NCBI GenBank assembly: GCA_018820395.1
Contig: JAHJOG010000263.1
Location: forward strand, 1-64,000
Direction of reading: 5' to 3'
Length of the DNA stretch: 64,000 nt
From: Gammaproteobacteria bacterium
Lineage (GTDB): Bacteria; Pseudomonadota; Gammaproteobacteria; Burkholderiales; Burkholderiaceae_C
The notes beneath the pieces are model-generated. The model saw only the letters and a list, made by a program, of their open reading frames with translations. It did no database searches and had not been told where the DNA came from. Numbering within the stretch: position 1 is the stretch's first letter; each line of letters begins with the position of its first letter. The position numbers and the translations under genes are program-made. This document shows, one piece after another, positions 25,276 through 58,755 of the stretch.

Positions 25276-26901
25276 TCAGATCTCGAAGAGCAGTGTGCCC
25301 AGGGCGGCGCCCACCGGCTCGACCGTCATTTTCTCGGCCAGCACCGCGCGCAGGGCCGCGCCGTCGACGCCGGGGTATTCATCACTCACACGCACCAGGA
25401 TCTCGCCGGCCAGCACCCGCAGCTGTTCGACCGAGCCGCGCAGCCGGCTCCGGAACGCCGCGTCGTCGAGCTGGTCGTTCAGGCTGCGGTTGAGCTCGGC
25501 GAACCAGGGCAGGCTGGCCTGGTCGAGCATCACCGGCTTGTTCTGCTTTCGGCTCACGCCCGACCAGGCGCGCAGAAAAGGCTGCATGGCCAGGTTGAGC
25601 CGCTGGCAGTGCTGCAGCTCTTCGCGCAGGCTGCCGAGCACGGCGAGGTCGGTCAGGCGCTCGTGGAAGAAGATCTGCGAGAGCACGCCCCAGTAGTAGG
25701 TGTAGTCCCAGATCACCTTGGCGGGCAGCACTTCGGGGTCGCCGAAGAGCGCGTATTGATCGGTGTAGAGCGCCAGCGTGCTCTCGTAGAACGAGTGGTA
25801 GATCTGGTCGTAGAGCTGCGACCGCGCGTCGAGCGCATGGCCGGCGCGGTCGTGCCCGATCAGGTCGACGATGTAGGTGTTGCTCATCGCGATGAAGTCG
25901 CTGCCGGGCGAATAGAACGGGTCCAGGAAGAGCCCCGCCTCGCCGGTGAGCGCCCAGCGCTGGCTCGAAAACACCTGCTTGCAGCCGTAGGAGAAATTGC
26001 GGAAGAAGGCGAAGTCTTGCAATTGGTCGCGCTTGCCGTCGAGTTCGTCGTGCAGCATCGGCTGCCAGATGCGCAGCCAGTCCATCGCCTTGTCGAAGGT
26101 GTCGAAGGCTTCCAGCGGATGGTGTCTCGGGTCGGCCACGATGCCGATCGAATGCGAACCCGAGGCCAGCGGGATCAGCCAAACCCAGTAGCCCGTGCCG
26201 ACCAGGTGGTTGGTGGACATCCAGCGCGCACGGGGCTCGCAGCGCGCCCGCCAGGCGGGGTCGTCGCTCCATTCGTCGATCTCGATGCGGCCGCGCACGC
26301 GGAACCACACCGCATTGCAGGTGTGCGCATTGGTCTCGGCCAGGCCGAGCTTGCGCTTGAGGATGCCCGCGCGGCCGCAGGCGTCGATCACCCAGCGCGC
26401 CTCGATGTCGTGCGTCTGCTCGCCTTGCACCCAGGCCAGGCGATGTGGCTGGACTTCGTCTGCAGCCAGCTCGATCCGCACGACCCGCGCGTCGTCGACG
26501 AAGCGCACCCCGGCGCGCGTCGCCTCTTCGGCCAGGTAGTTTTCGAAGATGCCACGGTCGATCTGGTAGCTGGGCACCGACAGCGGACGGCTCGCGCCGA
26601 TCTCGGTCACCTCGGCGATGTCGCGCCGGCCTTCGCTGAAGAAGAAGCGAAAGCCGAACTTGCGCAACTGCCGGTCGTCGAGGTGCGGCTTGAGGCCCAG
26701 CACCGTGTCGAAATAGTGCGCGCCGATTTCCACCGACGATTCGCCGACCTTGTGCGTCGCGTGCGGCACCGGGTGCGACCGCCGCTCCAGCACCACCACG
26801 TCGATGTCGGCGAAGCGCTGGCGCAGCTGCAGCGCGAGCGTGAGACCCGCGAGCCCGCCCCCCATGATCACGACGTCGTGACGGCGGAGACCGGCGTTCA
26901 T
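25276..26901 (-). CDS. Flavin-dependent halogenase-like oxidoreductase
   Basis: 541 residues. The FAD-binding GGGLAG at 14-19 is preceded by a beta strand. KVGESS is near residue 51, then K81 in RKFGFRF aligns with the catalytic lysine region of tryptophan halogenases (K79 of PrnA), and WVWLIP at ~236-241 matches the diagnostic WxWxIP halogenase motif. This supports a flavin-dependent halogenase fold. Related proteins in aryl-polyene clusters are often labelled only FAD-dependent oxidoreductase, so halogenation activity is inferred. It starts 5 bases after the ketoacyl-synthase-like gene in a three-gene operon. No flavin reductase partner is nearby. Confidence 0.82.
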   Translation of the reverse strand: MNAGLRRHDVVIMGGGLAGLTLALQLRQRFADIDVVVLERRSHPVPHATHKVGESSVEIGAHYFDTVLGLKPHLDDRQLRKFGFRFFFSEGRRDIAEVTEIGASRPLSVPSYQIDRGIFENYLAEEATRAGVRFVDDARVVRIELAADEVQPHRLAWVQGEQTHDIEARWVIDACGRAGILKRKLGLAETNAHTCNAVWFRVRGRIEIDEWSDDPAWRARCEPRARWMSTNHLVGTGYWVWLIPLASGSHSIGIVADPRHHPLEAFDTFDKAMDWLRIWQPMLHDELDGKRDQLQDFAFFRNFSYGCKQVFSSQRWALTGEAGLFLDPFYSPGSDFIAMSNTYIVDLIGHDRAGHALDARSQLYDQIYHSFYESTLALYTDQYALFGDPEVLPAKVIWDYTYYWGVLSQIFFHERLTDLAVLGSLREELQHCQRLNLAMQPFLRAWSGVSRKQNKPVMLDQASLPWFAELNRSLNDQLDDAAFRSRLRGSVEQLRVLAGEILVRVSDEYPGVDGAALRAVLAEKMTVEPVGAALGTLLFEI

Positions 26902-26906
26902 GGCGT

Positions 26907-27725
26907 TCAAGCCTGCGGCGAAATCTGCAATTGAAGGTGCACGCCGCCGGCGAGCGGCAGGCCCAGCCGGGCGGCGTCGCCGCGCGCCAGCGCCTCGAAG
27001 AGCGGCAGCGCATCGGCCATGGCGTTGATCTGCAGCGCCCGTGCGGCGGGCGATGCCGGAGCGCCGGCCGGGGCCGCGCCGGGCGCCAGCGACCAATCGA
27101 ACTCGGCCACCGTCCGCTCGGTGCGTTCGGGCGCGATCACCAGGGCCACCGCCAGCAGGTCGCGGCTGGTCGTCACCGACGACAGGGCGCCGACCGACGG
27201 CATGTCGTAGCCGGCGAGCAGCACGGCCTGGTGGTCCGCGGCGCATTGGGCGGCGGCTTCGAGCAGGGCCGAGGCGAAAGTGCTTTCGTAGGCCGACACC
27301 GAGTTGCTCGCGGCCATGCAGCCGGTGCCGATGGTCCAGTAGCCCACCGCAGCGTTGTGCACCGAGTTGTGGAACTTGATGGGCGACAGCAGCTTGGGGT
27401 CGTTGGCCAGCGTGCTGCACATGTAGTCGTTGATGCCGAGGTCGCCATGGGCCGAGGCGAAAACGCAGGGCAGGTCGGCCGCCTGCCGGCCGGACGCAGC
27501 GATGGACGCCGCGGCCACCTCGAGGGCCAGGGCCACGGTGTCGGGCGCGCGGCGGCGCTCTGCCGGGGCCAGCACCTGCGGCGACGGCCGCTTGGCGGGC
27601 GGGTCGGCCGGCTCGGCTTCGCCGCGGAACACGGCGCGCGCCAGCTCCCAACCTGGCAGGCTCGGCGCCCACAGGGCCGGGCCTTCGATGTAGAGAGTCG
27701 GCGTCTTGGCTGGCGTGGCGCTCAT
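26907..27725 (-). CDS. Beta-ketoacyl synthase-like protein (chain-length-factor type)
   Basis: 272 residues of the short ketoacyl synthase N-terminal-like family found in aryl-polyene clusters beside a full ketoacyl synthase. The conserved stretch FHNSVHNAAVGYWTIGTGC corresponds to the thiolase-fold active-site region but lacks the standard TACSS nucleophile context, consistent with a structural partner. The ATGA start overlaps the upstream ketoacyl synthase stop, so the two are made together. Confidence 0.82.
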   Translation of the reverse strand: MSATPAKTPTLYIEGPALWAPSLPGWELARAVFRGEAEPADPPAKRPSPQVLAPAERRRAPDTVALALEVAAASIAASGRQAADLPCVFASAHGDLGINDYMCSTLANDPKLLSPIKFHNSVHNAAVGYWTIGTGCMAASNSVSAYESTFASALLEAAAQCAADHQAVLLAGYDMPSVGALSSVTTSRDLLAVALVIAPERTERTVAEFDWSLAPGAAPAGAPASPAARALQINAMADALPLFEALARGDAARLGLPLAGGVHLQLQISPQA

Positions 27726-28915
27726 GCTGCGGCTCCCTTGCCGAACACGAGCGAGCAGTTGTTGCCGCCGAAGCCGAAGGAGTTGCTCAGCGCATGCCGC
27801 ACGTTGCCGCGCGCCGGCTCGAGCTTGATCTGAGGGCCGCACTCGGGGTCGAGTCGGCCGGTGTTGACCGTGCCCGGCATCAGCCCTGTTTCGAGCGCCA
27901 GCAGGCTGATGACGGCCTCGACGATGCCGGCCGCACCCAGCGTGTGTCCGGTGAAGCCCTTGGTGGAGCTGGCGTGCGTGCTTGCCGGAAACCGGCGTGT
28001 CACCAGCGCGCCTTCGACCTCGTCGTTCTTCATGCTGGCGGTGCCGTGCATGTTGATGTAGTCGATCGAGTCGGCCGCGATGCCGGCGCGGGCCAGCGCA
28101 TCGTCCAACGCTTTCTCGGCGCCCAGGCCCTGCGGATGCGGCGTGGACATGTGGTGCGCGTCGCTCGCCTCGCCGTAGCCCTGGAGCTCGAGCGCGCCGG
28201 GGCCGCGCTCGATCAGCGCGAAGCCGGCGGCCTCGCCGAGGCTGATGCCGTTGCGTCCGGCGTCGAAGGGACGGCAGGGTTCGGGCGACACGAGCTCCAG
28301 CGAGTTGAAGCCGAACAGCACGCTGCCGCAGAGCGTGTCGACGCCGCCCACCACGGCTGCGTCGACCAGCCCCAGGCGGATCAGCCGCTCGGCCGATGCG
28401 AAGGCCTTGGCGCTCGACGAGCAGGCGGTCGAAATGGTTTCGGACGGGCCTTCGAGACCGAGCGCCTCCTGCACGAACATCCCCAACGAATGCGGGGTGT
28501 GGACCCGCGGGCGGTGCTGGTCCGGCGGAAAGCTGCCGTCGGCCTGGAGCTGCGTGTACGACAGCTCGGTCTCGCCGATGCTGGACGTCGACGTGCCGAG
28601 GATCAGCGCGACGCGCGTCGGGCCGTAGCGTTCACGCGCCTGCGCCACCGCATCGATGAAGCCATCGGCCTGCAGACCGAGCCAGGCCAGCCGGTTGTTG
28701 CGGCAGTCCCAGGCGGCGAGGTGTTCAGGAAGGCGAAGCGCTTCGAGGCCTTCCACGCGCCCGATCCAGGTCGGAAGCGGCGCGTCGCCGAAGTCGTTGG
28801 CGCGCAGGCCGCTCCGGGATTGCTCCATGGCCTGGAGCAGCGCGGCCTTGCCGACGCCGACCGCCGATGTCGCCGTGTAGGCGCTGATCTTGAGGGGTTG
28901 AATGGGAGAGGGCAC
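27722..28915 (-). CDS. Beta-ketoacyl-ACP synthase (FabF-like)
   Basis: 397 residues from a GTG at 28915 (no ATG fits; the frame upstream to 29047 is not homologous). The catalytic triad is complete: C165 in STACSSSAK, H290 in NMHGTASMKND and H324 in GFTGHTLGAAG. It would extend a polyene or fatty chain by decarboxylative Claisen condensation. With the two downstream genes it forms a compact module. The ACPs, ketoreductase, dehydratase and ammonia-lyase of a complete aryl-polyene cluster are absent from this window. Confidence 0.88.
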   Translation of the reverse strand: MPSPIQPLKISAYTATSAVGVGKAALLQAMEQSRSGLRANDFGDAPLPTWIGRVEGLEALRLPEHLAAWDCRNNRLAWLGLQADGFIDAVAQARERYGPTRVALILGTSTSSIGETELSYTQLQADGSFPPDQHRPRVHTPHSLGMFVQEALGLEGPSETISTACSSSAKAFASAERLIRLGLVDAAVVGGVDTLCGSVLFGFNSLELVSPEPCRPFDAGRNGISLGEAAGFALIERGPGALELQGYGEASDAHHMSTPHPQGLGAEKALDDALARAGIAADSIDYINMHGTASMKNDEVEGALVTRRFPASTHASSTKGFTGHTLGAAGIVEAVISLLALETGLMPGTVNTGRLDPECGPQIKLEPARGNVRHALSNSFGFGGNNCSLVFGKGAAA

Positions 28916-28994
28916 GGTGTGTGTCGAGAAGCGAAAAAAACACGACAGAGTACCAGTTAGCCGGTGCCCGAAGGCGCCCCGCGATGGTCGAGGG

Positions 28995-30383
28995 TTATTC
29001 GCCCGCTCGGCCCGCGTCGGGGGCGCCCGGCATGGCGCCCGCCGCACCGTTCGCCGACGAACGCCGGGCCCGTGCGGCCAGCACCACCAGCAGCAGCACC
29101 GGCACGCCCAGCAACGCCGTCCCGATGAAGAAGGGGCGGTAACCGTACCCGTCGACGAACACGCCCGAGTAGCCGGCGATGAATTTCGGCAGCAGCAGCA
29201 TCAGCGAACTGAAGAGCGCGTATTGCGTGGCCGAATAGCTGACGTTGGTCAGGCTCGACAGGTAGGCGATGAACGCGGCCGACGCGATGCCGCCCGCCAG
29301 GTTGTCCGCCGACACCACGAAGATGAGACCGTAGAGGTCGTGGCCGCGCGAGGCGAGCCACGCGAAGAGCAGGTTGCTCGCCGCGCTCAGCACGGCTCCC
29401 AGCATCAGCACGCGCATCACGCCCAGGCGCATCGACAGCACGCCGCCGACGAAGGCGCCCACCAGCGTCATCGCCACGCCGTAGATCTTGCTGACCGACG
29501 CCACCTCGTCCTTGGTGAAGCCCATGTCGACGTAGAAGGGGTTGGCCATGATGCCCATCACGACGTCGCTGATGCGGTAGATGGCGATCAGCGACAGGAT
29601 CAGCACCGCCTGCCACTTGTAGCGCCCGATGAAGTCGGCAAACGGTTCGATCAGCACGGCGTGCAGCCATTCGGCCGCGTTGCGCGTCGGCGGCAGCGCG
29701 ACGCGCGCGGGCTCCGGCGACAGCAGCACGGTGACCACGCCCACCGCCATCGACGCCGCCATCACCAGATAGGCCGTCTTCCAGCCGCCGTTCTGATAGC
29801 CCGAGGCGCCGCTGAGCTCGGAATAGGCGGCAATCCACAGCACGCCCGCGCCGGCCCAGATCATGGCGAGCCGGTAGCCGGTCTGGTAGGCCGCCGCCAG
29901 CGCCGCCTGCTTGCGGCTCGCTGCGGATTCGATGCGAAAGGCATCGAGCGCGATGTCCTGCGTGGCCGAACCGAAGGCCACCAGCAGCGCGGCCCAGATC
30001 AGCGGCTTCAGCCCGTCGCTCGGGTCGTTGAACGCCATGCCGATCAGGCCCGTCACCACGGCAGCTTGCGCCAGCAGCAGCCATCCGCGGCGCCGCCCGA
30101 GCAAGGTGGTGAGCGGCGGCACCGGAAGGCGGTCGACCAGCGGCGCCCACACCCACTTGAATCCGTAGGCGAGCCCGACCCAGCTCAGGTAGCCGATGGT
30201 GGTGCGGTCCACGCCGGCTTCGCGCAATCGAAAGCTCAACGTGCCCAGCACCAGCAGCAATGGCAGGCCCGCCGAGAAGCCCAGTGCCAGCATGCGCAGC
30301 GTCGCGGGTTCGAGATAGACCTTGAGCGCGTCGCGCCAGGGCAGGGGAGAAGGCGAGGCTTCGGCAGTCGAAGGTTCTGACAT
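28995..30383 (-). CDS. ampG: AmpG-family muropeptide transporter
   Basis: 462-residue MFS protein with at least 12 hydrophobic helices and AmpG landmarks (LGFSAGLPLLLVLGTL, WAPLVDR, SATQDIALDAFR, MGIMANPFYVDMGFTKDE, ADNLAGGIASAAFIAYLSSL, and SATQYALFSS near the end). It imports anhydromuropeptides for cell-wall recycling. It is transcribed in the same direction as the ketoacyl synthase gene, 79 bases upstream of it. A short palindrome lies just upstream of its start. Confidence 0.93.
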   Translation of the reverse strand: MSEPSTAEASPSPLPWRDALKVYLEPATLRMLALGFSAGLPLLLVLGTLSFRLREAGVDRTTIGYLSWVGLAYGFKWVWAPLVDRLPVPPLTTLLGRRRGWLLLAQAAVVTGLIGMAFNDPSDGLKPLIWAALLVAFGSATQDIALDAFRIESAASRKQAALAAAYQTGYRLAMIWAGAGVLWIAAYSELSGASGYQNGGWKTAYLVMAASMAVGVVTVLLSPEPARVALPPTRNAAEWLHAVLIEPFADFIGRYKWQAVLILSLIAIYRISDVVMGIMANPFYVDMGFTKDEVASVSKIYGVAMTLVGAFVGGVLSMRLGVMRVLMLGAVLSAASNLLFAWLASRGHDLYGLIFVVSADNLAGGIASAAFIAYLSSLTNVSYSATQYALFSSLMLLLPKFIAGYSGVFVDGYGYRPFFIGTALLGVPVLLLVVLAARARRSSANGAAGAMPGAPDAGRAGE

Positions 30384-31400: not shown

Positions 31401-31487
31401 GACGTTGTCCAGAAGCCGGTCAAAGTGGACCGTGCTTCCTTGTACGAAGGGCGAGCCCGAACGGGGTTAATCGGTACTCGAAATTTC

Positions 31488-31503
31488 TGGCACGCCCTTT
31501 GCA
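31488..31503 (+). promoter_or_regulatory. Sigma-54 (-24/-12) promoter of operon 1
   Basis: TGGCACG-N4-TTGCA matches the sigma-54 consensus, with the required 10 bases between GG (31489-31490) and GC (31501-31502) and an AT-rich flank (AAATTTC) upstream. Predicted transcription start about 31514, within the following palindrome. Sigma-54 control needs an enhancer-binding activator such as NtrC; I saw no clear NtrC site. Confidence 0.8.
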
Positions 31504-31508
31504 TCTCA

Positions 31509-31522
31509 TCTTGTACACAAGA
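31509..31522. promoter_or_regulatory. Palindromic operator TCTTGT-AC-ACAAGA (probable GntR site)
   Basis: Six-base arms around AC, starting 7 bases downstream of the sigma-54 -12 GC and covering the predicted +1. A near-identical element at the same spacing precedes operon 2 (37713-37726). The TTGTAnnCAA core fits FadR/FCD-type GntR sites. A related but weaker CCTT-GTACG-AAGG lies at 31438-31450. Confidence 0.65.
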
Positions 31523-31536
31523 CAGGATGCTTGACG

Positions 31537-33240
31537 ATGGTGCATGACAACCGCCCGCCCGACGGATTGGCGACAGAGGCTTGGATCGAAAGGTTCGCGC
31601 AGCCGCTCGTCGGCGCGGCCACGGGCCCGTTGAAAGGCCTCGTGTTTGCGGTCAAGGACAACATCGACGTGGCCGGCGTGGCGACCACCGCGGGCTGCGC
31701 AGCCTTCGCACGCACGCCGGCCCGCCATTCGTTCGTGGTGCAGCGGCTGCTCGATGCCGGTGCGAGCCTGCTGGGCAAGACCAACCTCGACCAGTTCGCC
31801 TGCGGCCTGAACGGCACGCGTTCGCCCTACGGCGCGGTGCCCAACAGCTTCGACGCGCGCTACGTCTCGGGCGGGTCCAGCTCGGGGTCGGCCTATGCGG
31901 TGGCGACGGGGCAGGTCGACTTCGCGCTCGGCACCGACACGGCCGGCTCGGGCCGCGTTCCAGCCGGGCTCAACAACATCGTCGGCATCAAGCCATCGCG
32001 CGGCTTGCTCAGCGCACGCGGCGTGGTGCCGGCGGCGCAGAGCATCGATTGCGTGTCGATCTTCGCGCCGACGGTGGCGCTGGCCGTGCAGGTGCTGGTG
32101 GCGGCGCTCGGCCCCGATCCGGCCGACCCCTATTCGCGCGCGCTCGAGCTCGACCCGACGCCATTGCCGGCGGGGTTTCGCTTCGGCTTGCCCGCCGAGC
32201 CCCGGTTCTTCGGCGACCGGCTGGCGCAGGTGGAATTCGAACGCGCCATCGTGCAGATGGAAGCGCTGGGCGGCGTGGCCGTGAAGATCGACTACACGCC
32301 GCTGGCCCAGGCCGCGTCGCTGCTCTACGACAGCGCGCTGGTCGCCGAGCGCTATGCGGCGGTGCGCGAGTTCTTCGACGCGAACGAAGCCGAAGTCATC
32401 GAGCCGGTGCGCAGCATCCTTGCGCAGGGCCGCGCTTACAGCGCTGCCGATTTCGTCGATGCTCGCACGCGCCTCCAGGCGCTGGCCGGCCAGGCCGACG
32501 CGCTCTGGAGCGACATCGACGTGCTGGTGGTGCCGACGGCGCCCACGCATTGCACGATCGAGGCGATGCAGGCCGAGCCGGTGGTGCGCAACCGCGAGCT
32601 CGGGGAATACACCAACTTCGTCAACCTGCTCGACTACGCCGCGATCTCGGTGCCCAGCAGCTTGCGGCCCGACGGGCTGCCTTTCGGCATCACGCTCATC
32701 GGCCGCTGCGGCAGCGATCTCCGGTTGGCCGAACTCGGCCAGCGCTATCACCACCGCACCGGGCTGGGTGTCGGCGCGACGGGCGCGCCCTTGCCGCCGC
32801 CCGCGCCGCTGCCGGGCATTCAGGTCGCCGCCACGCATGCCACCGTCCAGGTGGCCGTCGTCGGCGCTCACCTGTCGGGTATGCCGCTCAACAGCCAGCT
32901 CACCGAGCGCGGCGCGCGTCTCGTCGAAGCGACGCGCACCGCGCCCCTCTACCGTCTCTACGCTCTGCCCGGCACCGTGCCGCCCAAGCCCGGGCTGATC
33001 CGCGTCGGCGCGGGCGAAGGCGCGGCCGTCGAACTCGAAGTGTGGGAGATGCCGATGGCGGCCTACGGCAGCTTCGTGACGCTCATCCCCGCTCCCCTCG
33101 GCATCGGCAGCCTGAGCCTGGCCGACGGCCGCAGCGTGCAGGGCTTCGTGTGCGAACCCTGGGCGCTGGCCGGGGCCGAGGACATCACTCACCTCGGCGG
33201 CTGGCGGGCCTACATGGCTTTTCGCACGGCGGCTGCCTGA
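31537..33240 (+). CDS. atzF: Allophanate hydrolase, AtzF type
   Basis: 567 residues from ATG 31537 (AGGA 9 bases upstream; the track's TTG start at 31531 is less likely). The amidase-signature domain (~1-450) has the Lys in VKDNIDVAG, the cis-Ser in GGSSSGSAYAV and the nucleophile Ser in GTDTAGSGRVP. The C-terminal ~110 residues form the allophanate-hydrolase-specific domain (VAVVGAHLSGMPLN, GTVPPKPGLIRV). The enzyme hydrolyses allophanate to two CO2 and two NH3 without biotin, the last step of s-triazine and biuret nitrogen release. No urea carboxylase gene is nearby, which favours the biuret route. Confidence 0.93.
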   Translation: MVHDNRPPDGLATEAWIERFAQPLVGAATGPLKGLVFAVKDNIDVAGVATTAGCAAFARTPARHSFVVQRLLDAGASLLGKTNLDQFACGLNGTRSPYGAVPNSFDARYVSGGSSSGSAYAVATGQVDFALGTDTAGSGRVPAGLNNIVGIKPSRGLLSARGVVPAAQSIDCVSIFAPTVALAVQVLVAALGPDPADPYSRALELDPTPLPAGFRFGLPAEPRFFGDRLAQVEFERAIVQMEALGGVAVKIDYTPLAQAASLLYDSALVAERYAAVREFFDANEAEVIEPVRSILAQGRAYSAADFVDARTRLQALAGQADALWSDIDVLVVPTAPTHCTIEAMQAEPVVRNRELGEYTNFVNLLDYAAISVPSSLRPDGLPFGITLIGRCGSDLRLAELGQRYHHRTGLGVGATGAPLPPPAPLPGIQVAATHATVQVAVVGAHLSGMPLNSQLTERGARLVEATRTAPLYRLYALPGTVPPKPGLIRVGAGEGAAVELEVWEMPMAAYGSFVTLIPAPLGIGSLSLADGRSVQGFVCEPWALAGAEDITHLGGWRAYMAFRTAAA

Positions 33241-37691: not shown

Positions 37692-37707
37692 TGGTACGGT
37701 TTATGCA
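37692..37707 (+). promoter_or_regulatory. Sigma-54 (-24/-12) promoter of operon 2
   Basis: TGGTACG-N4-ATGCA has GG (37693-37694) and GC (37705-37706) exactly 10 bases apart. It is slightly weaker than the operon 1 promoter but has the same layout. Predicted start about 37718, inside the following palindrome. Confidence 0.7.
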
Positions 37708-37712
37708 TCCCT

Positions 37713-37726
37713 TCTTGTATCCAAGA
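37713..37726. promoter_or_regulatory. Palindromic operator TCTTG-TATC-CAAGA (probable GntR site)
   Basis: 12 of 14 bases are identical to the element at 31509-31522, and it begins the same 7 bases after the -12 GC. It lies 35 bases before the BMP-family gene. Confidence 0.65.
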
Positions 37727-37761: not shown

Positions 37762-38880
37762 ATGACCCAGTTCAACCGCCGCGATTCGATCAAGTCGCTC
37801 GCCGCCATCGCCGCCACCGGCTCGCTCGCCGGCTGGTCGTCGCTCGCCGGCGCGCAGAAGCCGCTCACGGTCGGCGTGATCTACGTCGGCCCGCGCGAGG
37901 ACTACGGCTACAACCAGGCGCACGCGCAGGCGGCGGCCGAACTCAAGAAGATGCCCGGCGTCAAAGTGGTCGAAGAAGAGAACGTGCCGGAAACCGCGGC
38001 CGTGCAAAAGACCATGACCGGCATGATCGAACAGGACGGCGCCAAGCTGCTGTTCCCGACGTCGTTCGGCTACTTCGACCCGCACATCCTGGCCGTCGCA
38101 CCCAAGTACCCGGACGTGCGCTTCTCGCATTGCGGCGGGCTGTGGACCGAAGGCAAGCACCCGAAGAACGTCGGCAGCTTCTTCGGCTACATCGACGAGT
38201 GCCAGTACCTCAACGGTGTGGTGGCCGGCCACATGACCAAGAGCAAGAAGATCGCCTTCGTCGCCGCCAAGCCGATCCCGCAGGTGCTGCGCAACATCAA
38301 TGCGTACACGCTCGGCGCACGCTCTGTGGACCCGTCGATCACCTGCAGCGTGATCTTCACGGGCGACTGGTCGATGGCGGTGAAAGAGGCCGAGGCCACC
38401 AACAGCCTGGCCGACCAGGGCTGCGACGTGTTCACGATGCACGTCGACGGACCCAAGGTGGTGGTCGAGACGGCGGCCAAGCGCGGCAAGATGGTGTGCG
38501 GCTATCACGCGAGCCAGGCCAAGCTGGCGCCCGATGCCTATCTGACCGGAGCCGAATGGAACTGGATCACGGCGTACAAGACCTTCCTCGACGCTGCCCA
38601 GACGGGCAAGCCGCATCCGAACTTCCTGCGTGGCGGGCTCAAGGAGGGCTATGTGAAGACCTCCCCCTACGGCCCCAAGGTGACGGACACCGCCAAGAAG
38701 AACGCCGATGCGGTCAAGGCCAAGATGATGAGCGCCTCGGGCATGGACATCTTCACCGGCGGCCTGAAGGACAACAAGGGCACGGTGGTGGTCGCGGCCG
38801 GCAAGTCGCTGAAGCAGACCGACCTCGAACTTGAAAAGATGAACTACCTGGTCGAGGGAGTGATCGGAAGCATCGGCTGA
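37762..38880 (+). CDS. BMP-family ABC transporter substrate-binding protein
   Basis: 372 residues starting MTQFNRRDSIKSLAAIAATG, a twin-arginine-type signal, then LTVGVIYVGPREDYGYNQAHA, the hallmark start of basic-membrane-protein/PnrA-like nucleoside- or nucleobase-binding proteins. AGGAG lies 7 bases before the ATG. First gene of operon 2. Homologues bind purine nucleosides and related heterocycles, which fits uptake of a ring compound as nitrogen source. Confidence 0.92.
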   Translation: MTQFNRRDSIKSLAAIAATGSLAGWSSLAGAQKPLTVGVIYVGPREDYGYNQAHAQAAAELKKMPGVKVVEEENVPETAAVQKTMTGMIEQDGAKLLFPTSFGYFDPHILAVAPKYPDVRFSHCGGLWTEGKHPKNVGSFFGYIDECQYLNGVVAGHMTKSKKIAFVAAKPIPQVLRNINAYTLGARSVDPSITCSVIFTGDWSMAVKEAEATNSLADQGCDVFTMHVDGPKVVVETAAKRGKMVCGYHASQAKLAPDAYLTGAEWNWITAYKTFLDAAQTGKPHPNFLRGGLKEGYVKTSPYGPKVTDTAKKNADAVKAKMMSASGMDIFTGGLKDNKGTVVVAAGKSLKQTDLELEKMNYLVEGVIGSIG

Positions 38881-45053: not shown

Positions 45054-45797
45054 GTGAACACCGTCCGACCCGACCCCGCGCTCATGCCGACTCCGGCCGG
45101 TGGGCCGGCCGCGTTCCGCACGCGGGCCGACGAGGTCTACGCACAGCTCAAGCGCGACGTCGCCGAGTTCAGCCTGGTGCCGGGCGACCGCTTCACCGAA
45201 AGCGAGATCAGCGAGCGGCTCGGCGTGTCGCGCACGCCGGTGCGGCAGGCGCTGTTCCGGCTGCAGCAGGAGGGGTTCGTCGAGGTGCTGTTTCGCAGCG
45301 GTTGGCGCGTGCTGCCTTTCGACTTCGACCAGTTCGAGCAGCTGTACGACCTGCGCATGGTGCTCGAGACGACGGCGGCGCATCGCCTGTGCGAAGGCAT
45401 CCGGCCGGTCGACCGCCAATTGCTCGACGCCCTCGCGGGCATCTGGCTGGTGCCGGGCGCGCAGCGCAGCACCGACACGGCGCGCGTCGCGCAGTGGGAC
45501 GAAGACTTTCACTGTTCGCTGGTGGCTGCGGCCGGCAATGCCGAAATGGCGCGCGTGCACCGTGACGTGACCGACCGCATCCGCATCATCCGGCGCCTGG
45601 ACTTCACCAAGCAGCCGCGCATCGACGCGACCTACGACGAGCACGCCAAGATCCTCAAGGCCATCCGCGCCAATCGCGGCGACCAGGCGGCCATGCTGCT
45701 GCGCGCACACATCGAAACCAGCCAGGCCGAGGTGCGCAAGATCACGCTGCACCAGGTGCACCTGGCCCACGCGGCGCATCGCGCGGCGCGCACCTGA
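45054..45797 (+). CDS. GntR-family regulator (FCD subfamily)
   Basis: 247 residues from a GTG codon. The winged helix at ~22-88 (FTESEISERLGVSRTPVRQALFRLQQEGFVE) is followed by an all-helical FCD domain with likely metal-binding His residues (DFHCSLVAAAGN, ILKAIRANRG, LRAHIETS). FCD proteins sense carboxylates or related small ligands. It is embedded in operon 2, so it is the best candidate to bind the paired TCTTGTAnnCAAGA palindromes at the start of both operons. That link is inference. Confidence 0.92.
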   Translation: MNTVRPDPALMPTPAGGPAAFRTRADEVYAQLKRDVAEFSLVPGDRFTESEISERLGVSRTPVRQALFRLQQEGFVEVLFRSGWRVLPFDFDQFEQLYDLRMVLETTAAHRLCEGIRPVDRQLLDALAGIWLVPGAQRSTDTARVAQWDEDFHCSLVAAAGNAEMARVHRDVTDRIRIIRRLDFTKQPRIDATYDEHAKILKAIRANRGDQAAMLLRAHIETSQAEVRKITLHQVHLAHAAHRAART

Positions 45798-47500: not shown

Positions 47501-47776
47501 GTGCGCATCTCCTACGATCCGGTAAAACGTCAGAAGACTCTCGACGATCGAGGCCTGGATTTTGAAGACGCTGTCGATGTGTTTGCAGGCCTGACGGTCG
47601 AAGTCGAGGATGTGCGCAAGGAATAAGGTGAACCTCGAATACTTTGCTACGGCCTGCTTGCTGGCAGGCTCGTGGTTGTCGGGTACACCCCGCGTGGCTC
47701 GGTCCGCCATGTCTTCAGTATGCGAAAGGCCAATGATCGTGAACAAACCCGTCTCGCGCCGTACCTCGAGCTCTGA
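47501..47776 (+). pseudogene. brnT: BrnT-family toxin gene with premature stop
   Basis: Reading from GTG 47501 gives VRISYDPVKRQKTLDDRGLDFEDAV... to RKE, then TAA at 47624-47626 (codon 42), then GEPRILCYGLLAG through RHVFSMRKANDREQTRLAPYLEL and TGA at 47774. Both halves stay in the same frame and together have the ~91-residue BrnT length. In the family this position is usually Tyr (DYGEPR-type), so one base change TAC/TAT to TAA explains the stop. The RNase toxin would be cut before its conserved C-terminal half. No frameshift is needed. The ORF track misses it because each half is short. Confidence 0.8.
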
Positions 47777-48032
47777 TCTGACACGCGTCGACGCGCATGT
47801 GATCAAGCCGTCCGAGTACAAGGAGCTCCCCGAACTCACCGAAGAAATGCTCTCCCGCGCGGTCGTCCGTCATGGTGGCCGCCCTCGCTCCGAGCATCCG
47901 CGCCAGCTCATCAGCTTGCGCTTGCCGGCCGAAGTCGTCGCGCGTTGGAGGGCAACAGGTCCAGGTTGGCAGACGCGCATGGCCGAGCGCCTGGCGCGAC
48001 CGCCGATGCCACGCGCGAAGAGTGAAGGCTGA
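47733..48032 (+). CDS. brnA: BrnA-family antitoxin
   Basis: 99 residues from ATG 47733, overlapping the end of brnT by 44 bases (AAAGG just upstream). The N-terminus is disordered (toxin-neutralising part in this family); the C-terminal part GRPRSEHPRQLISLRLPAEVVARWRATGPGWQTRM is the BrnA ribbon-helix-helix-like DNA-binding domain. It is intact although the toxin gene is broken. The 41-residue extension in the track (from 47610) is shadow of brnT. Confidence 0.85.
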   Translation: MIVNKPVSRRTSSSDLTRVDAHVIKPSEYKELPELTEEMLSRAVVRHGGRPRSEHPRQLISLRLPAEVVARWRATGPGWQTRMAERLARPPMPRAKSEG

Positions 48033-58720: not shown

Positions 58721-58755
58721 TGCATGGACTCTAGGGCCTGCACCTAGTCAGTGCA
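58721..58755. other. Imperfect inverted repeat in the mrdA-GMC intergenic region
   Basis: TGCATGGACTCTAGG and CCTAGTCAGTGCA are imperfect inverted copies around a 7-base centre (GCCTGCA). It lies between two convergent genes and carries no T tract. The rest of 58610-58828 shows no gene or other recognisable element. Confidence 0.35.

Follow-up and report, generated by a model that had tools for sequence, protein, structure and literature searches.

What decides when the allophanate hydrolase gene atzF and the genes behind it are transcribed? In the window, the whole stretch of 64,000 nucleotides analysed here, the region at 31488–31544 is, with a probability of roughly 0.7, the switch that controls a 1-carboxybiuret/allophanate-type cluster for nitrogen scavenging, composed of a sigma-54 promoter that is repressed by a GntR-family protein and probably opened by NtrC. 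The region contains the following elements.

31488–31494, + strand: -24 element TGGCACG of the sigma-54 promoter (read from the sequence; conserved in atzF loci)
31499–31503, + strand: -12 element TTGCA of the sigma-54 promoter (read from the sequence; conserved in atzF loci)
31509–31522, no strand: putative operator TCTTGT-AC-ACAAGA over the expected +1 (conserved, at a fixed gap)
31525–31530, + strand: GGATGC, a conserved block past the operator and possible outer operator arm (suggestive only)
31528–31544, no strand: NtrC-like box TGCTTGACGATGGTGCA, overlapping the atzF start (11 of 14 consensus positions)
31537–33240, + strand: atzF, allophanate hydrolase (TIGR02713)

The best start of atzF is the ATG at 31537 (TIGR02713, 746 bits against a cut-off of 511). 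Upstream of it, TGGCACGCCCTTTGCA at 31488–31503 of the + strand is a perfect TGGCACG-N4-TTGCA, with the GG at 31489–31490 separated by N10 from the GC at 31501–31502, which confirms the exact GG-N10-GC spacing reported in the first-pass annotation. The same annotation described a 14-bp palindrome here. Its position holds: TCTTGTACACAAGA at 31509–31522 begins 7 bases past the C of the -12 GC and covers the expected +1, which by convention lies 12 nt downstream of that C, at about 31514. Its symmetry needs amending, as the two 6-bp inverted arms are perfect and the AC centre is non-symmetric. From this arrangement we infer that sigma-54-dependent initiation occurs at ~31514. In addition, a half-operator-like CCTTGTACGAAGG at 31438–31450 of the window may be an auxiliary site, as may the CTTG...CAAG repeats with a wider spacer that are found upstream of the -24 element in three other loci (L047, L048, and L050).

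The window contains a second promoter–operator pair at 37692–37726 with an identical 5-bp gap, located within the same run of genes.

37692–37707, + strand: second sigma-54-like element TGGTACGGTTTATGCA (read from the sequence)
37713–37726, no strand: second putative operator TCTTGTATCCAAGA, at the 5-bp gap seen at atzF (read from the sequence)
37762–38880, + strand: Bmp/PnrA-family ABC substrate-binding protein, encoded downstream of the second copy (domain match)
45054–45797, + strand: GntR-family regulator with an FCD domain, the proposed repressor (domain match, co-occurrence)

The second operator ends 35 bp before the ATG (37762) of the Bmp-family gene. On the + strand, atzF is followed by an NMT1-type ABC transporter, an AtzG-like protein, an AtzE-family protein, and the Bmp-type ABC transporter, and further on by a formamidase-like protein, two isochorismatase-fold hydrolases, the FCD-GntR regulator, an amidohydrolase, and a PyrE-like protein. 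This gene order fits the Comamonadaceae clusters of Esquirol et al. 2018 (PMC6219798), where the available text likewise places an allophanate hydrolase upstream and same-strand ABC transporters and amidases around the atzG-atzE-atzH clusters of Variovorax and Rhodoferax. The word "promoter" is absent from the main text of that article, and its available sections describe no regulation.

The promoter alone is unremarkable: in the 5.28-Mb genome, its exact pattern and the reversed control have one match each. The operator, allowing up to 2 mismatches, is found at two sites in the window against a shuffle mean of 0.48, and 7 of 100 shuffles reach two. The composite of both elements behaves differently from its control: the 35-bp pattern with up to 3 mismatches is present in 58 of 399 family genomes and 31 of 141 genera, whereas the reversed pattern is present in 0 of 399. 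Together with the identically spaced second copy, this excludes chance. Among the 30 composite loci listed, 26 have atzF behind the site, two have Bmp, and two (L003 and L004) neither; the latter, in G262 and G325, have no cluster gene, their genomes have no GntR match, and they look like chance hits. When the gap between the -12 element and the operator was left free over 29 values, 43 of 64 matches fell at one value and every other gap received at most 4; the share is 43 of 51 for plausible operator centres, a list picked after looking at the data. Moreover, a tighter pattern gave nine sites in 8 of 398 genomes sampled across the phylum (reversed control, 2 genomes). Eight of the nine are found at genes for NMT1, AtzF, Bmp, or FCD-GntR, and two of the nine belong to one family member, G114.

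We aligned 36 atzF loci on the -24 element, namely the window and, out of 80 loci, the 35 that fit the composite geometry. The loci were selected on columns 0–34, thus the informative part of the alignment lies outside these columns. Conserved blocks are confined to columns 0–56, from the -24 element on, and mean information is 0.14 bits in columns -60 to -1 and 0.30 in columns 57–109. No shared sequence was found upstream of the -24 element in the 36 loci. Conservation and the rpoN gene encoded in the genome strongly support TGGCACG-N4-TTGCA as a sigma-54 promoter, in agreement with the first-pass assignment.

Promoters of the sigma-54 type often serve genes needed when nitrogen is scarce. 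RNA polymerase with sigma-54 forms a closed complex and requires an ATPase activator. At atzF, it would sit on 31488–31503 and stay closed until such an activator, most likely NtrC, opens the complex under nitrogen shortage. The FCD-GntR protein would bind the operator and block opening until it has bound a pathway compound, presumably an intermediate. Positioned at about -5 to +9, a repressor would cover the start point and part of the melting region, and could block opening without displacing the polymerase. The GGATGC at 31525–31530 mirrors the GCATC of the -12 element, and the GCAT/ATGC pair is present in 29–34 of the 36 loci. This outer arm is suggestive only and possibly a coincidence, as its left half is the -12 element itself; at L068, a locus with a shorter gap, the left side shows no mirror arm by eye. 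If the arm is real, the repressor would touch -12 bases and exclude the polymerase. Repression could work as a roadblock, by preventing melting, or by keeping polymerase off the promoter. Provided that NtrC is the activator, the switch would follow AND logic, the genes being on only under nitrogen shortage and in the presence of the right nitrogen compound. The second copy would drive the Bmp transporter genes and probably transcribe gntR on the same strand, which would provide feedback.

The first-pass annotation proposed nitrogen control through NtrC. The genome indeed harbors an ntrC gene (TIGR01818, 662 bits against a cut-off of 558.6). An upstream NtrC enhancer was sought from -400 to +19 in 35 atzF loci (L045 was left out for lack of flank) and was rejected at the sensitivity used, since the best upstream scores over ~400 positions are 8–11, near those of shuffled sequence and slightly higher. 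Scoring used the enteric NtrC consensus TGCACCAnnnTGGTGCA, as given in the available text of PMC8743547; that of PMC4987338 contains a similar one. The regions preceding P-II genes (30 loci, 26 genomes) served as a yardstick and yielded no local consensus: in Variovorax, four glnB loci carry a sigma-54-like site, but neither near that site nor near glnK could a clear NtrC dyad be found, and the amtB locus of the source genome ends just upstream of the gene. A first NtrC pattern, TGCACYNNNNNRGTGCA with up to 1 mismatch, has 30 genomic matches (reversed control, 11). TGCACY-N5-RGTGCA is matched perfectly at a single place in the genome, TGCACCTAGTCAGTGCA at 58739–58755 of the window, between converging genes.

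The only candidate activator site common to atzF loci is the box at 31528–31544, downstream of the start point, which the first-pass annotation missed. At a fixed distance, the alignment of the 36 loci shows the block G-r-ATGC-n-T-n-A-nn-[AGT]TGGTGCA. It ends in TGC-N7-TGGTGCA, and this end overlaps the start codon of atzF in the window. A genus-wide search for TGGTGCA behind the sigma-54 elements, with 29 distances allowed, found matches in 81 of 101 genomes, and the reversed control in none of the 101. Counted from the list of 91 matches, 80, in 80 of the 101 genomes, have the block at exactly 57 bp; the remaining 11 vary in length and appear to be chance matches. Columns 40–56 agree with 11 of the 14 fixed NtrC consensus positions in the window and with 10–13 in 33 of 35 loci. 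The window holds 10 sites within 3 mismatches of the consensus, and shuffles average 3.2; a match of this quality is thus not unusual there. The argument for the box as an NtrC site rests on its conservation and position. Three atzF sites (L014, L066, and L073) are without the block. In G114 (L232), most of it precedes the NMT1 transporter gene, where it does not form the start codon and could be the remnant of a lost atzF start.

We consider it possible, at somewhat less than even odds, that the whole 57 bp form a three-protein switch, in which the sigma-54 elements are joined by an operator on +1, perhaps sharing -12 bases, and by an NtrC enhancer downstream over the first atzF codons, with no enhancer upstream. 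NtrC, possibly bound downstream of the start, would then act from about +15 to +31, and repressor and activator would compete for adjacent DNA. To about the same tentative degree, the same promoter and GntR operator may instead be opened by another enhancer-binding protein, acting from solution or from a degenerate site, and TGC-N7-TGGTGCA would be a translation start context, an outer GntR contact, or an RNA contact. Eight strong Sigma54_activat matches in the genome indicate several activators besides NtrC, in atzF loci the box and the start codon share bases, and no consistent NtrC-like box was found at the 11 Bmp promoters examined. Against this speak the fit of the block to the published NtrC consensus cited above and the variation of its codons. 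Codon 2 is GTG in 75 of 82 distinct sites, whose start codons are ATG (62), TTG (8), or GTG (5), and in the 69 sites with TGGTGCA the third codon encodes His 44 times and Gln 25 times, with its CA constant. As the start codon varies and codon 3 switches while CA is kept, the constraint appears to act on DNA or RNA and not on protein, and the block seems not well explained by translation alone. A comparison of half-sites, from which L001 and L002 (copies of the window) were left out, points weakly to compensation: a perfect left NtrC half is present in 3 of 60 sites (L027, L028, and L060), two of them from one genus, and the right half is damaged in all three. In B. cenocepacia, according to the available text of PMC5491218, growth on biuret was better rather than worse in an ntrC mutant, which speaks against NtrC, as do the Bmp promoters and the three atzF sites without the block. 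In favour of NtrC, a urea carboxylase and related genes were among those reduced in the same mutant.

Returning to the repressor, the regulator encoded at 45054–45797 is well supported as the protein of the palindrome, as the first-pass annotation had suggested, by its co-occurrence with the motif and by blind pattern matches at the same genes. A relative with at least 66% identity, a line chosen after looking at the data, is encoded in 48 of the 58 motif-bearing genomes versus 4 of the 341 others (Fisher 4e-47, kinship not corrected for); with relatives at E <= 1e-50, the counts are 55 of 58 versus 59 of 341. Of the four genomes with such a relative at 66% but outside the first pattern, G022 and G023 have a related site with a gap 3 bp shorter, and G114 has a site at the usual gap with more mismatches. 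No related site was found in G232, which has a GntR relative at the same identity line. The palindrome might be bound by another GntR/FCD paralogue or an unrelated regulator, as such paralogues are many (45 first-look candidates in the source genome, of which 6 were scored) and 7 of 62 genomes with only a 45–63% relative also carry the motif. We regard this as improbable, given the co-occurrence, the location of the 45054 gene in the cluster, and a like site in three distant genomes of the phylum (L228–L230). There, a sigma-54-like site and CTTGTATGCAAG stand before an FCD-GntR-like gene, as if that gene were autoregulated; its product shares 27–30% identity with that of 45054.

That the elements arose by chance, or that TTGCAT is the -35 of a sigma-70 promoter, is disfavoured and hardly credible, for although an exact sigma-54 pattern is expected about once per genome, the arrangement is conserved with fixed spacing, the GG of the -24 element is invariant in the 36 loci (GG having been a selection criterion), and the hexamer 17 bp beyond TTGCAT makes, by eye, no good -10.

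The proposed combination of a GntR-repressed sigma-54 promoter and NtrC has parallels. HutC is a member of the GntR family. In the Pseudomonas hut operon, whose regulators are HutC, NtrC, CbrB, and sigma-N, a single promoter region of the sigma-N type is likewise the target of both the local repressor and NtrC, and binding sequences are shared and steric hindrance occurs, as far as the available text of PMC8871633 describes it. The hut NtrC subsites are far upstream of +1, whereas the only NtrC-like box at atzF is downstream, and unlike that of hut the regulator here is of the FCD type. An AND gate built on sigma-54 exists in synthetic form (available text of PMC4490610). In the parts of the open-access literature covered, on allophanate/biuret regulation, NtrC/RpoN sites, downstream enhancers, and start-site repressors, no description of the element was found.

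For enhancers placed downstream, a precedent is offered by the FleQ-dependent flagellar sigma-54 promoters of P. aeruginosa, at which, from the work of Jyot et al. in 2002, enhancer sites reportedly lie downstream of the RpoN site. Their activator is FleQ and not NtrC, and we know of no repressor operator on +1 at these promoters. If the reading of the atzF region as a GntR-repressed sigma-54 switch is right, it would give a widespread cluster for nitrogen scavenging a testable regulator, an operator, and two promoters. Such a rigid natural promoter could also reveal by what means a repressor prevents sigma-54 opening, and whether action of NtrC from downstream is possible at very short range.

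In other clades, operator-like and sigma-54-like elements, scored separately, are found together in atzF loci at gaps other than the 5 bp of the window. The gap is 3 in Nitrincola, 13 in Herbaspirillum, and 15 in Acinetobacter, and it is 7 and 8 in a Moraxellaceae and a Cellvibrio MAG, respectively. The partnership of promoter and operator may thus be older, with the 5-bp gap a family trait. By eye, the Herbaspirillum operators (L101 and L102) have long outer arms apart from the -12 element. In Variovorax paradoxus ISL-3 (L038), the sequence just upstream of 10001 is TGGCACGCGGCTTGTACACAAG, apparently with about one helical turn missing, the operator on the -12 position, and the downstream block kept. 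Elsewhere in the window, ketosynthase domains lie beside a halogenase-like flavoprotein on the minus strand at 25276–29047, and a BrnA-type antitoxin domain (PF14384) at 47610–48032 is probably part of a toxin–antitoxin pair.
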